A stretch of 64,000 nucleotides of DNA from Prorocentrum cordatum (lineage: Eukaryota > Sar > Dinophyceae > Prorocentrales > Prorocentraceae): positions 53,501 to 117,500 of the forward strand of contig CAUYUJ010020267.1 in assembly GCA_963575745.1 (NCBI GenBank), written 5' to 3'. A program made the position numbers and the translations under genes. Shown here one piece after another: positions 4,900 to 53,517 of the stretch (position 1 is the stretch's first letter; each line of letters begins with the position of its first letter). The notes under the pieces are model-generated. The model saw only the letters and a list, made by a program, of their open reading frames with translations, was not told the origin of the DNA and searched no databases.

Positions 4900-6575
4900 G
4901 TGACGCGAAGCGTCTTGGGGGCGTCCTTGGACGTCTGGGGTCTCCTGGGGCCTCTTGAGGGGCCTCCTGGGGGCCTCCTGGCGGCCTCTTGGGGCGGAAG
5001 GCTCGAGCTTGCGGTTCGTGGTCCCCCTCTGGGCCCCCTCTTGGGCCCGTCTTGGGGCCCTCTTGGGCCATCTTGGGCGCCTCTTGGGCCGTCTTGGGGC
5101 CCTCTTGGGCTGTCCTGGGGCCCTCTGGGAAGTTTTTTGGGCCGTCTTGGGGCGGTCTTGGGCGCCTCTTGGGCCGTCCTGTAACGTCGGAAAGCCCAAA
5201 AGGCGACTTGGTTGAAAATGTACGTTTTACAAACGGAATGGGCAAATTCTTGCGTCTAGGGGCCCTCTTGGGACGCATGTTGGAGGCTTCTTGGGGCGTC
5301 TTGGGGGCGCCCTTGGACGCCTGGGGTCTCCTGGGGCCTCTTGAGGGGCCTCCTGGGGGCCTCCTGGCGGCCTCTTGGGGCGGAAGGCTCGAGCTTGCGG
5401 TTCGTGGTCCCCCTCTGGGCCCCCTCTTGGGCCCGTCTTGGGGCCCTCTTGGGCCATCTTGGGCGCCTCTTGGGCCGTCTTGGGGCCCTCTTGGGCTGTC
5501 CTGGGGCCCTCTGGGAAGCTTCTTGGGCCGTCTTGGGGCGGTCTTGGGCGCCTCTTGGGCCGTCCTGTAACGTCGGAAAGCCCAAAAGACAACTTTGTTG
5601 AAAATGTACGTTTTACGAAGGGAATGGGCCAATTTTTGCGTCTAGGGGCCCTCTTGGGACGCATGTTGGAGGCTTCTTGGGGCCTCTTGGGGGCGTCCTT
5701 GGACGTCTGGGGTCTCCTGGGGCCTCTTGAGGGGCCTCCTGGGGGCCTCCTGGCGGCCTCTTGGGGCGGAATGCTCGAGCTTGCGGTTCGTGGTCCCCCT
5801 CTGGGCCCCCTCTTGGGCCCGTCTTGGGGCCCTCTTGGGCCATCTTGGGCGCCTCTTGGGCCGTCTTGGGGCCCTCTTGGGCTGTCCTGGGGCCCTCTGG
5901 GGAAGCTTCTTGGGCCGTCTTGGGGCGGTCTTGGGCGCCTCTTGGGCCGTCCTGTAACGCCGGAAAGCCCAAAAGGCGACTTTGTGAAAAATGTACGTTT
6001 TACGAAGGGAATGGGCCAATTCTTGCGTCTAGGGGCCCTCTTGGGACGCATGTTGGAGGCTTCTTGGGGCCTCTTGGGGGCGTCCTTGGACGTCTGGGGT
6101 CTCCCGGGGCCTCTTGAGGGGCCTCCTGGGGGCCTCCTGGCGGCCTCTTGGGGCGGAAGGCTCGAGCTTGCGGTTCGTGGTCCCCCTCTGGGCCCCCTCT
6201 TGGGCCCGTCTTGGGGCCCTCTTGGGCCATCTTGGGCGCCTCTTGGGCCGTCTTGGGGCCCTCTTGGGCTGTCCTGGGGCCCTCTGGGAAGTTTTTTTGG
6301 GGTCTTGGGGCTTGGTCTTGGGCGCCTCTTGGGCCGTCCTGTAACGTCGGAACGTCGGACCCAAAAGACAACTTTGTTGAAAATGTACGTTTTACGAAGG
6401 GAATGGGCCAATTTTTGCGTCGAGGGGCCCTCTTGGGACGCATGTTGGAGGCTTATTGGGGCCTCTTGGGGGCGTCCTTGGACGTCGGGTGGCCATCTTC
6501 AGCATCTCGGAGCCCTCTTGGAGGCCTCTTGGAAGTTTCTTGGGCCGTCTTGGGGGCTTCTTGGGCCGTCTTGTC
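4900..6575. repeat. Tandem array of a 386-bp unit, about 4.3 copies
   Basis: The marker GGACGCATGT occurs at 5,271, 5,657, 6,044 and 6,437, giving spacings of 386, 387 and 393 bp. Each unit has an internally repetitive part built from TCTTGGGCCGTCTTGGGG-like words. It also has one unique AT-richer core, AAAATGTACGTTTTACGAAG followed by GGAATGGG. The first unit is partial and the last decays at about 6,480-6,575. All six frames stay open for long stretches because the period is close to a multiple of three and stops are rare. The Trp/Leu/Gly and Arg/Pro proteins predicted here are artefacts. 6,576-7,135 holds nothing recognised. Confidence 0.9.
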
Positions 6576-36912: not shown

Positions 36913-37100
36913 TTCTCATCCCTCCAACAACTCTCCTCCCCACCATCTCTTCAACATCGGGGGCGTCCAGAAGGAGGGGTCCGAGAGGGGGTGGCTCAAA
37001 TCATGGCCAGCGGCACGTGCGCGTCTCAAGGGGGGCCAGGGGACGTACTGAAGTGGCCCCCCGCCACGATAGCGCCCCCCCAGTCATCACCCCACTCCTG

Positions 37101-37117
37101 GCCGCTCCCGACAACAC
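37101..37117. other. Target-site duplication, left copy
   Basis: GCCGCTCCCGACAACAC, identical to 39,661-39,677, directly adjacent to the poly(A) tail remnant of the retrocopy. Confidence 0.9.
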
Positions 37118-37333
37118 TTTTTTTTTATACCAGCGCAGACGGAGCCCTGTGGCGCGACACGACAGACGAGCGACGGACGACAGACGAACGAAAAAGAGGC
37201 GGCGCAGAAGAAGGGGGGGAGGGAGGGGAAGAGGGGGAGGGCAGGCAGGGGGCGCCCGCGCCGGCGCAGCCCCGCACTCACCCGAGGGCGCCGCGGCGGC
37301 ACCGCCGCGGCTGCGGCCGGCGAGCAACCACGC

Positions 37334-39502
37334 CTACCTCCGCCTGGCAGCGGCGGAGATGCCGGCAGCCATCTGGCCCATCAGCTCGGCGAGGGCTGGG
37401 CCAGAGAGCTGGCGCAGCGCGACGTCCAGTCGGCGCTGCAATTGCCGCCGCTTCCCCCCCGTGGGGGCCCGCAGCAACGCCGCCAGCTCCTCCTCGGCCG
37501 GCCGTCCGCCCGCCCGGACCAGCGCGCTCACCAACGCCATGTGGTGAACACGAGCCGCCGCCTCCGCGGCCTCCGCACCGCCCGGCACGTCCTCCACCGG
37601 GCCTGGCCCGGGAGGGGGGGCGGGCGGCTCCGCAGCATCGGCCAGCCCCAGCGGGGAGCCGGCCGCCTCGACCTCCACCGGGCCTGGCCCGGGAGGGAGG
37701 GGCGCATCCAGGCCGAGGGGGCGCGCGAGGGCTGGCCCAGCCTCCGGCGCCTCCATCGGGCTGCGCGGCACCTCGACCAGATCGGCGGCTCTGGGAGGGC
37801 AGGTCGGCTCGACCTCTTCTGGCCGAGCCGGTGGGGGAGGCGTCGCGGGGGCAGGGGCCCACCCGCTCCACCGCTGCAGGCAGAGCCGCGCAAGCGCCAC
37901 CTCGTACCCAGCCGCGGCCCTGGCCCCAGCAAGATGTTCCTCGGCTGGCGCCTTCGCAGCCGCCGCGCCCACGCCAGGGGGCGGTCCGACCAAGGCACCA
38001 AGCTCGGCCCCCCCGCGGAGGGCAGAGCAGAGCCGCGCCAGCGTCTCCTCGATGCTGGCCGTGACGCCGGCCTCATGCCCGGGAGGAGCCACCTCCACCG
38101 GAGCCGCATGCCCGGGAGGAGCCACCTCCACCGGAGCGACCTCGACCTCGACCGGGCAAGCGGGCCCAGGAGGGAGGGAGGGATCGACGGAACCGAGGGC
38201 GTCGTCGATGCTGGCCGTGACGCCGGCCGCATGCCCGGGAGGAGCCACCTCCACCAGAGCATCCTCGACCTCGACCGGGCCAGCGGGCCCAGGAGGGAGG
38301 GAAAGACCGACTGAGCCGGGGGCGTTGTCGGTGTTGGCCGTGACGCCGGCCTCCTGCCCGGGAGGAGCCACCTCCACCGGAGCAACCTCGACCTCGACCG
38401 GGCCGACGGGCCCAGGAGGGAGGGAGGGAACGACAGCAGAGCCGAGGGCGTTGTACTCGCCCTCGATGTCGAACTCGCCCTCGTCCATGGGGCAGGCCGC
38501 GCCGCCACCCTGCCACGGGCGAGGGCTGCCTTTGCAGCACTGGCGGCTCGGGGCCTGCGTCGGCTGCTGCCGAGGGGGCGTGGCCACTACGACCGCGCGG
38601 CGCGCTGCCGGCTGCGCCGCGTCATCCGCGTCGCCGTCGTCGACGTCGGCCCACCGCATACGGGGGCTGCCCGAGCCAAGCCACGACGTGCCAGGGCCAC
38701 CCGACTCCGAGCCGGACCGGCTCGCATCCGCCGGCTCCTTCAGGGAGCCCACCGGAGCAGGATGCCCTCGGGGACTGCCTCGGCCTTGTATCCCCGAAGT
38801 CCGGCGACCCGCAGGGCCGCCGCGACCAGCTCCGCCCGCTTGCGGCCGCTCCCGCTGCCGCCGCCCCCGCCGTCGCCGGGGGCCCCGGCTACCGGAGCCT
38901 GGCTCGAAGCCGACGGCGACTCCTCCTTCAGGGGGGGGGTGACTGCGAGCGCAGGTGGAGCCGCAGCGCCTGGGGCGTCGTCCGCGTCCGACGTCGGAGT
39001 GTAGTAGCTGTACTCCACGTCCGCCTCCGCACCTGCCTCCGCCTCCTCCATCCCAGCTCGCTGAGGAAGCGACGCTGGCACCTCGGGGGAGCGGAGACCC
39101 TGGCTGCTGGCCCGCCCCCGCGCCGTGCGCGGCGGCGTCGTGGGCACCCGCCTCGCTGGCGCCGCCAGCGCTGGGCCCCCTGGGGGCGAGCGGCTGTGCC
39201 TCGAGCTTCGAGGCCCCGAGCGACGGCGCCCCTCCGAAGGGGAGCCAGCCCGGCCACGGAGGCTCCGCGAACGCCGCAGGCGGCCATGCGCTGCCCCCGA
39301 CGCCTGCTGCGCTCGGCGCTGCCGCCGACGCTCCGCCTTCTGCGGCCGCAGGCTCTGGCGCTGGCGGCCCCGACCGCACGGCCCAGCACCCGGGTGCTGG
39401 CTCCACGGCGGCCTTGGGCGGCTCCGGGACCGGCACCGCGAGCCATCCCCAGCACCACCCCGGGGGGAGTGGTGGCAGCGCTCCGGGGCCTGGCCACGCC
39501 AT
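37334..39502 (-). CDS. Retrocopied gene, main frame: Ala/Pro/Glu-rich protein of unknown function
   Basis: The 722-codon frame ends at a TGA (37,336-37,334). It is followed by about 207 nt of 3' UTR and the A tail. Roughly residues 250-722 look genuinely coding. They include an acidic stretch (MRWADVDDGDADDAAQ, MDEGEFDIEGEYNAL), then repeats of SLPPGPxGPVEVEVAPVEVA / PPGHAAGVTASIDDAL of exactly 41 residues (123 bp; markers at 38,114, 38,237 and 38,360) plus an 11-residue (33-bp) partial repeat. A helical C-terminal part follows (LVSALVRAGGRPAEEELAAL, KRRQLQRRLDVALRQLSG). Repeat periods divisible by three support selection on this frame. The first 250 codons are Ala/Pro-rich and may or may not be the true frame, because another frame looks coding there. 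No family is recognised. Confidence 0.6.
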   Translation of the reverse strand: MAWPGPGALPPLPPGWCWGWLAVPVPEPPKAAVEPAPGCWAVRSGPPAPEPAAAEGGASAAAPSAAGVGGSAWPPAAFAEPPWPGWLPFGGAPSLGASKLEAQPLAPRGPSAGGASEAGAHDAAAHGAGAGQQPGSPLPRGASVASSASWDGGGGGRCGGGRGVQLLHSDVGRGRRPRRCGSTCARSHPPPEGGVAVGFEPGSGSRGPRRRRGRRQRERPQAGGAGRGGPAGRRTSGIQGRGSPRGHPAPVGSLKEPADASRSGSESGGPGTSWLGSGSPRMRWADVDDGDADDAAQPAARRAVVVATPPRQQPTQAPSRQCCKGSPRPWQGGGAACPMDEGEFDIEGEYNALGSAVVPSLPPGPVGPVEVEVAPVEVAPPGQEAGVTANTDNAPGSVGLSLPPGPAGPVEVEDALVEVAPPGHAAGVTASIDDALGSVDPSLPPGPACPVEVEVAPVEVAPPGHAAPVEVAPPGHEAGVTASIEETLARLCSALRGGAELGALVGPPPGVGAAAAKAPAEEHLAGARAAAGYEVALARLCLQRWSGWAPAPATPPPPARPEEVEPTCPPRAADLVEVPRSPMEAPEAGPALARPLGLDAPLPPGPGPVEVEAAGSPLGLADAAEPPAPPPGPGPVEDVPGGAEAAEAAARVHHMALVSALVRAGGRPAEEELAALLRAPTGGKRRQLQRRLDVALRQLSGPALAELMGQMAAGISAAARRR

Positions 39503-39546
39503 CCCCCCTGCCCGCCGCGCCCCTGCTGGGCACGCCGCTTCCCCAT
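38740..39546 (-). CDS. Retrocopied gene, first AUG frame: 268-codon ORF overlapping the main frame
   Basis: The first AUG after the spliced leader is at 39,546 (MGKRRAQQGRGG). Its frame stays open to a TGA at 38,742-38,740. From about 39,060 to 38,745 this frame looks clearly coding (EAEAGAEADVEYSYYTPTSD, PPLKEESPSASSQAP, RKRAELVAAALRVAGLRGYK, AVPEGILLRWAP). The main frame takes over immediately after the stop with VGSLKEPADASRSGSESGG. The simplest reading is that one protein runs through both frames and that this copy carries one or two indels (a retropseudogene), or that the assembly has indel errors near homopolymers such as the G9 run at 38,931-38,939. Two genuinely overlapping ORFs are the less likely alternative. 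Confidence 0.5.
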   Translation of the reverse strand: MGKRRAQQGRGGQGGWRGQAPERCHHSPRGGAGDGSRCRSRSRPRPPWSQHPGAGPCGRGRQRQSLRPQKAERRRQRRAQQASGAAHGRLRRSRSLRGRAGSPSEGRRRSGPRSSRHSRSPPGGPALAAPARRVPTTPPRTARGRASSQGLRSPEVPASLPQRAGMEEAEAGAEADVEYSYYTPTSDADDAPGAAAPPALAVTPPLKEESPSASSQAPVAGAPGDGGGGGSGSGRKRAELVAAALRVAGLRGYKAEAVPEGILLRWAP

Positions 39547-39611
39547 GAAGCGCCGGGCGCGCCGCGGCCGGCGGGCGCGCCGCGCGCGCCGCTCAAGCCA
39601 CCTCAAGCCAC

Positions 39612-39662
39612 CTTGAGCCAGATGGCTTGAGCCAAAATGGCTTGAGCCAAAATGGCTACGGC
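39612..39662 (-). other. Dinoflagellate spliced leader plus two relic leaders
   Basis: On the minus strand, 39,662-39,641 reads G-CCGTAGCCATTTTGG-CTCAAG, an exact match to the 22-nt dinoflagellate leader with G at its variable first base. It is followed by CCATTTTGGCTCAAG (39,640-39,626), a leader lacking its first 7 nt, and then CCATCTGGCTCAAG (39,625-39,612), an older, mutated one. Tandem truncated leaders arise when an already trans-spliced mRNA is retroposed, transcribed and trans-spliced again. A further weak echo, GTGGCTTGAG twice, follows at 39,611-39,592. Confidence 0.95.
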
Positions 39663-39677
39663 CGCTCCCGACAACAC
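39661..39677. other. Target-site duplication, right copy
   Basis: GCCGCTCCCGACAACAC, identical to 37,101-37,117. The first one or two bases are shared with the 5' end of the spliced leader, so the exact junction is ambiguous by that much. Confidence 0.9.

Positions 39678-53450: not shown

Positions 53451-53517
<67 letters not shown>

Follow-up and report, generated by a model that had tools for sequence, protein, structure and literature searches.

How does a stretch of DNA come to start with a dinoflagellate spliced leader, to end in a run of A and to lie between two identical words, and what was the messenger RNA (mRNA) from which it was copied? These questions are raised by a locus of Prorocentrum cordatum (assembly GCA_963575745.1, contig CAUYUJ010020267.1), located at positions 37,100 to 39,677 of the window, by which we mean the whole stretch of 64,000 nucleotides (nt) that was analysed (positions 53,501 to 117,500 of the contig, forward strand). 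A sequence-only reading had taken the locus for one complete retroposed mRNA of a single parent gene. Based on the junctions of the insert, on its sister copies in the genome and on its reading frames, we conclude that the segment is very probably one copy of a long-lived family of leader-tagged, polyadenylated mRNAs, which were inserted repeatedly by machinery of the long interspersed nuclear element (LINE) type, acting in trans.

Junctions and leader relics of the insert

The features at the two ends of the insert, in base pairs (bp) of the window, are the following.

37100-37117, no strand: target-site duplication arm at the 3' end of the inserted mRNA, GGCCGCTCCCGACAACAC (mRNA sense, GTGTTGTCGGGAGCGGCC)
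37118-37126, minus strand: A9 tail of the mRNA, T9 on the plus strand
39592-39611, minus strand: two 10-nt units GTGGCTTGAG, which may be leader relics in a state of strong decay
39612-39625, minus strand: decayed leader relic CCATCTGGCTCAAG
39626-39640, minus strand: intact leader relic CCATTTTGGCTCAAG
39641-39662, minus strand: dinoflagellate spliced leader, 22 nt, overlapping the target duplication by its first three bases (39660-39662)
39660-39677, no strand: target-site duplication arm at the 5' end of the inserted mRNA, GGCCGCTCCCGACAACAC, identical

The two arms agree in 18/18 bp (the 17-mer first noticed plus one base) and enclose 2,542 bp. At up to three mismatches the 18-mer has no further place in the window, and shuffled sequences give a mean of 0.13 places, none of 100 shuffles reaching two. 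Read on the minus strand, the insert starts with GTAGCCATTTTGGCTCAAG (39659-39641) and ends in GGTAT followed by nine A, which abut the other arm, so that both the flanking words and the poly(A) tail were rightly recognised from the sequence. The suspicion that the word might be a common repeat fell away, since the exact 18-mer occurs at only five places in the 4.13 Gb assembly, two of them being the focal arms and three lying elsewhere. Additionally, the word expected of an empty site (28 nt, at most two mismatches), sought in the assembly itself, has no match there, and thus none of the three further places is an empty copy at that similarity. The ends of the insert have only the 18-bp repeat in common, with no long terminal repeats (LTRs), and the window contains no transfer RNA (tRNA) gene and no Rfam match at gathering score, hence no head of a short interspersed nuclear element (tRNA, 7SL or 5S).

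The claim of an intact 22-nt leader needs a qualification. The string GCCGTAGCCATTTTGGCTCAAG is indeed present at 39662-39641, but its first three bases, GCC, are also the last three bases of the focal arm. Since nearly all of the exact leaders listed (the first places of the genome-wide list) start with TCC, and the sister copies L009, L010 and L015 carry TCCGTAG outside the arm, the focal GCC would be either shared microhomology or target DNA. We therefore read the junction as an 18-bp arm plus a leader lacking three bases, or as a 15-bp arm plus a three-base microhomology; a claim to a full leader excludes one to an independent duplication of 18 bp, because three bases are common to the two (19 nt of leader lie outside the duplication, 22 nt with the shared bases).

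Behind the leader, the insert preserves older leaders in shortened form. Such relics lack the first seven leader bases (PMC12014239). As this is what trans-splicing at a leader-internal TAG leaves behind, the copied mRNA came from an earlier retrocopy. The description as a complete retroposed mRNA thus stands as far as leader, tail and duplication are concerned, but the mRNA that was copied already carried relics and its immediate source was itself a retrocopy. Among the sister copies, the ladder of relics varies from one (slightly changed in L006) to two (L008), three (L009) and at least four intact relics (L007), and it is unequal even between close copies, L010, the sister of L009, having one; in each of L006 to L010 the relics are followed by the decayed inner unit of the lineage. 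If the ladders do count cycles, their inequality among close copies would let the order of retroposition cycles be read. L007 has no complete leader: its 5' end is scrambled, with an inverted leader-like piece lying between a 10-bp duplication and the relic ladder, about 95 bases before the match.

Dispersed copies and their target sites

Searches of the species' own genome (4,128,499,153 bp in 21,875 contigs) returned at least 59 matches to the insert (40 of 364 candidates scored), so that a dispersed family takes the place of the single retrogene first assumed. Five further copies are near full length (97-99% identity). The young age suggested by the perfect duplication fits the 0.5-0.8% by which the five nearest sister copies differ from the focal one, a divergence from which no absolute age follows. 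Family loci were analysed for 28 of the 59 matches, among which no intron-bearing or leader-free parent was recognised, no systematic intron test having been made. For the junctions, L013 (the insertion of L012 again, on another contig), L011 and L014 (N on one side) and L018, L022, L023, L030, L031 and L032 (3' end not reached) were left out, which leaves a set of 19 copies, focal included.

In this set, an arm was called anchored when the 9 or more bases that start directly behind the A-tract recurred exactly within the 220 bases preceding the 5' end of the match. Anchored duplications were found in 10 of the 19 copies and in 0 of 342 mismatched cross-pairs (at 7 bp or more, 12/19 and 9/342, respectively). 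Their lengths are 10 (L007), 12 (L012, where the first ~185 bases behind the arm have no match to the mRNA), 14 (L009), 16 (L010), 17 (L008) and 18 bp (L005, L015, L016 and L029); the duplication of L019 is longer, but as it sits within a tandem repeat it is a doubtful case. At the tail position, those sister copies that have a duplication show A4 to A10. Directly behind the A-tract, GTG is found at 13 of the 19 sites (with the tail end of L026 set by hand), and the base before the arm is T or C in 8 of 10 clear cases, which together would correspond to a nick on the other strand, behind CAC and before a purine. Several copies are truncated at the 5' end: L016 (from about position 986 of the mRNA, with two bases at its 5' join common with the arm) and L029 (from 2334) share the common 3' end and have 18-bp arms, L028 is truncated with a 7-bp duplication and L021 without one. 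A scan for an A-run plus repeat in DNA chosen for the family gave 15 matches, of which 8 belong to the family and 7 to a tandem array in the window, and the T-run control gave 4; since the DNA was chosen for the family, this lends the insertion reading weak support.

Target-primed reverse transcription by LINEs is known by its long arms of variable length, a tail, truncated 5' ends and a site motif, and from these marks we take the family to have been inserted in this way and not by LTR integration. The first proposal, that a spliced-leader mRNA was reverse-transcribed and inserted LINE-style with a duplication and a poly(A) tail, is in this respect strengthened, the sister copies adding further duplications, 5' truncation, a common 3' end and the target motif.

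Reading frames and the source of the mRNA

The copied mRNA contains two overlapping reading frames, one of them with a conserved domain (lengths in amino acids, aa).

37334-39502, minus strand: long open frame of 752 codons from stop to stop, with 722 aa counted from the first ATG; constrained near its 3' end in diverged copies
37337-37567, minus strand: conserved C-terminal domain RVHHMALV...GGKRRQLQRR...LAELMGQMA, with at least 62 genome matches
38103-38471, minus strand: three tandem repeats of 123 bp (41 codons), inside the long frame
38740-39546, minus strand: short overlapping open frame, giving 268 aa when read from the first ATG that follows the leader

The short frame starts at the first ATG of the mRNA and the long frame at the second. 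Frame length alone is weak evidence, as 752 codons are reached by 4 of 500 Markov sequences. Pooled over the copies of less than 90% identity (which, being related, are no independent sample), the differences by phase are 66, 21 and 26 in the long frame at mRNA positions 2050-2320 and 24, 48 and 21 in the short frame at 760-915; a weaker long-frame leaning is seen at 113-300, 600-760, 925-1180 and 1800-2050, none at 300-600, and the untranslated positions 2330-2500 have a flat profile. The ratio of nonsynonymous to synonymous change (dN/dS) for the long frame is 0.39 in L025 (119 codons) and 0.29 in L027 (117 codons), with 1.57 and 1.84 for the control frame, and 0.88 and 0.93 in L020 and L026. 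Of the 14 near copies (94-99.5% identical), in which changes are few, 10 have a ratio below 0.9 and 3 a ratio above 1, and in one it is undefined; in the region of the short frame the ratio scatters around 1 (0.45 to 4.5, again on few changes). In that same region, the long frame scores lower than the short one in L030, L031 and L032.

Both frames are also recognisable in an old relative, L083, which keeps two relics and a CTGGT-A9-GTG end, and which matches the long frame at 37% identity (E 1e-90) and the short one at 34% (E 6e-28); these searches were made without composition correction and wrong-frame pairs reach E 5e-10, so it is only the size of the gap that can be relied on. All 10 aligned copies, as well as L020 and L031, have the stop of the short frame; it lies one codon later in L083 and is missing in L026 and L032, and one-base indels near mRNA position 720 break the frame upstream of it in L007, L008, L012 and L017. 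A change of frame by damage to the focal copy is ruled out by this common stop (10 aligned copies, L020 and L031). An ATG at mRNA position 1000, considered as the start of a second protein, is not conserved.

Neither frame matches Pfam at E 0.1, and hence the mRNA encodes no reverse transcriptase or endonuclease of the kind that an autonomous LINE would have. The C-terminal 88 aa had no match among solved structures and, with the 752-aa translation as query, no homologue outside the species was found among 8000 scored candidates; residues 600-752 matched one protein, from P. cordatum. The C-terminal 77 aa recur in the genome (150 of 162 candidates scored) with identities that range from 100% down to about 48%. 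This domain is also contained, at 65% identity, in P0001, a predicted 801-aa protein of P. cordatum, whose remainder is unmatched and which may be an exonised copy or an artefact of the gene model.

What kind of gene supplied this mRNA is the point on which the strongest alternative turns. It supposes an ordinary cellular gene family whose mRNA was often recycled, so that the family would consist of processed pseudogenes or retrogenes instead of being a mobile element, with the same mechanism of insertion and another source; we regard it as a serious, if rather doubtful, possibility. The short-frame dN/dS near 1 in near copies is what processed pseudogenes would give, and the persistence of both frames in L083 and the domain in the 801-aa protein also agree with a cellular gene. 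Nevertheless, no leader-free or intron-bearing source was recognised in the 28 loci, the spread of domain copies points to long, repeated amplification, and the immediate source already had relics.

The view from which the locus was first approached, one insertion of a complete mRNA from a single intron-bearing gene, explains leader, tail and duplication at base resolution, but it is hard to reconcile with the dispersed copies, the relic ladder, the common 3' end and the target motif; it is now very unlikely, and a single retrogene with an intron-bearing parent is ruled out on copy number.

Machinery, leader sites and known systems

Integration of LTR elements gives duplications of about 4-6 bp. 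Capture of the mRNA by LTR-retrotransposon machinery of the Ty1/copia kind would thus not account for duplications of 10-18 bp, and neither does it lead one to expect a site motif, an A-tract where the 3' end joins the target, or copies truncated at the 5' end that share their 3' end. It is favoured, as an inference from high Ty1/copia expression, in a 2018 review (PMC6050394), and we consider it highly improbable for this family. That the two 18-mers reflect chance or a local duplication unrelated to the insertion has a negligible probability, for even with three further exact places in the genome, no shuffle gave two, the repeat abuts leader and A-tract exactly, and nine more of the 19 copies tested behave alike.

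For the family of LINE-inserted mRNAs, a cycle can be outlined. Starting from the observed duplications, tails, truncations, target motif, relic ladders and two conserved frames, we infer an enzyme, its action in trans, a start of transcription and a reading of the ladder as a count of cycles. An endonuclease would nick the strand complementary to Y/GTG, leaving a primer that ends in CAC, from which the poly(A) mRNA would be reverse-transcribed; a second cut some 10-18 bp away would produce the target duplication, and the 5' end would be joined at the leader or, after an early stop, inside the mRNA. Because the family mRNA has no reverse transcriptase, the enzyme presumably acts in trans. The retrocopy would then be transcribed from an upstream start and trans-spliced at the TAG in its own leader (CCGTAG/CCATTTTGGCTCAAG), which would add a fresh leader before the 15-nt relic and yield an mRNA able to insert again. 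We go one step further only tentatively: trans-splicing may turn retroposed mRNAs into non-autonomous, protein-coding retroposons, with the 15-nt ladder as a generation counter, and a LINE of CAC/R specificity may have carried the two-frame mRNA along until its proteins were only about 37-50% identical.

Several observations weigh against insertion of the family by LINE-type machinery acting in trans. Five of the 19 copies have no duplication (L006, L021, L024, L026 and L027) and four have only short or imperfect ones (L017, 8 bp; L028, 7 bp; L020, 9 bp without a tail; L025, 8 bp followed by a mismatch, at larger distance and scoring 3 in the anchored test). Ladders could also lengthen by slippage of 15-nt units. 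No LINE with a GTG target was identified among the four leader-led LINEs looked at. Outside the family, no anchored arm was found within 1.5 kb of 30 unrelated leaders, in 12 unrelated leaders extended to about 5.8 kb, or within 3.9 kb of 8 leaders chosen for an upstream TGTG. TGTG itself occurs 266 times at 12-20 bases before the leader and 135 times at 32-40 bases, an excess of only about twofold in counts that include overlapping matches and repeated flanks.

These leaders belong to the 12,939 exact ones (6,551 plus 6,388) of the assembly, where the reversed control gave none. When contact with an A-run was not asked for, one of the 12 extended leaders (L061) showed a 17-bp arm behind AAAAAAC. 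L061 (C3:700066, minus strand) is a retrocopy of a host gene with WD40 repeats, having a leader, a short A-tract and a 17-bp duplication that overlaps the GCC of the leader by three bases. We therefore limit the LINE mechanism to the family, where the junctions argue for it, consider it likely for L061 and do not extend it to leader sites generally; in particular, a GTG target common to leader sites is unsupported by the tests of 30, 12 and 8 loci and by the TGTG counts.

Five proteins were chosen from leader loci, of which four match RVT_1 (two above the Pfam cut-off) and three of these also Exo_endo_phos (two above). Their loci, L033, L041, L042 and L043, are, on these domain matches, LINEs whose own mRNAs bear the leader, and three of the four lie behind trinucleotide arrays. 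By eye, (TCC)n- or (GGA)n-like arrays precede about 21 of the first 30 listed leaders (all on C1-C3), which would hint at a preference of leader-led elements for microsatellites. Scans of viral and prokaryotic contigs for the leader gave only L001 to L004, of no use for the mechanism. In L001, an AT-rich IMG/VR contig, a GC-richer leader-led stretch on the minus strand (about 1790-2770), whose opposite end carries a T-run, looks by eye like a dinoflagellate mRNA copied into a virus-like contig; another leader lies at 2893-2913. L003 (JAKUNN010000063.1), binned as Dehalococcoidia, looks by eye like eukaryotic ribosomal DNA with a leader and is probably a mis-binned dinoflagellate contig. Elsewhere in the window, a 386-bp unit is repeated in tandem at 4913-6486 (4.1 copies, 96%).

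Leader-tagged retrogenes make up 22-23% of the genes in two Symbiodinium genomes, according to PMC6050394, which calls the class of the mediating retroelement unknown and leans to LTR elements, and leader-tagged viral fossils have been linked to LINEs by proximity (PMC10235124). The terms "target site" and "direct repeat" do not occur in the main texts of PMC6050394 and PMC12014239, and we found no report of target-site duplications at leader-tagged retrocopies in a literature judged mostly by listings, with subscription journals largely uncovered. Insertions that retain both arms, the tail and the site motif settle the retroelement class for the present family, and provide a concrete test for the remaining leader-tagged retrogenes.

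Among known systems, the leader-led APE-type LINEs (L033, L041, L042 and L043) share the 5' leader with the family but differ from it in encoding RVT_1 and, in three of the four, Exo_endo_phos. The half-LINEs of the HAL1 type are likewise protein-coding retroposons without a reverse transcriptase of their own, although no relation of the family proteins to a LINE protein was found among those of the loci that were compared. The processed pseudogenes and retrogenes made by mammalian L1 have the same poly(A), long variable duplications, 5' truncation and action in trans on mRNA; L1 uses an A/T-rich site, whereas the family would use Y/GTG (nick at CAC/R), and here the addition of leaders would mark the cycles. 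Dinoflagellate mRNA recycling with its spliced-leader (DinoSL) relics, reportedly described by Slamovits and Keeling in 2008, has the same 5' leader, the truncated relic CCATTTTGGCTCAAG behind it and multiple rounds; what distinguishes the present case is that both duplication arms and the tail are still in place, and that the copies form a dispersed family with a shared target motif.

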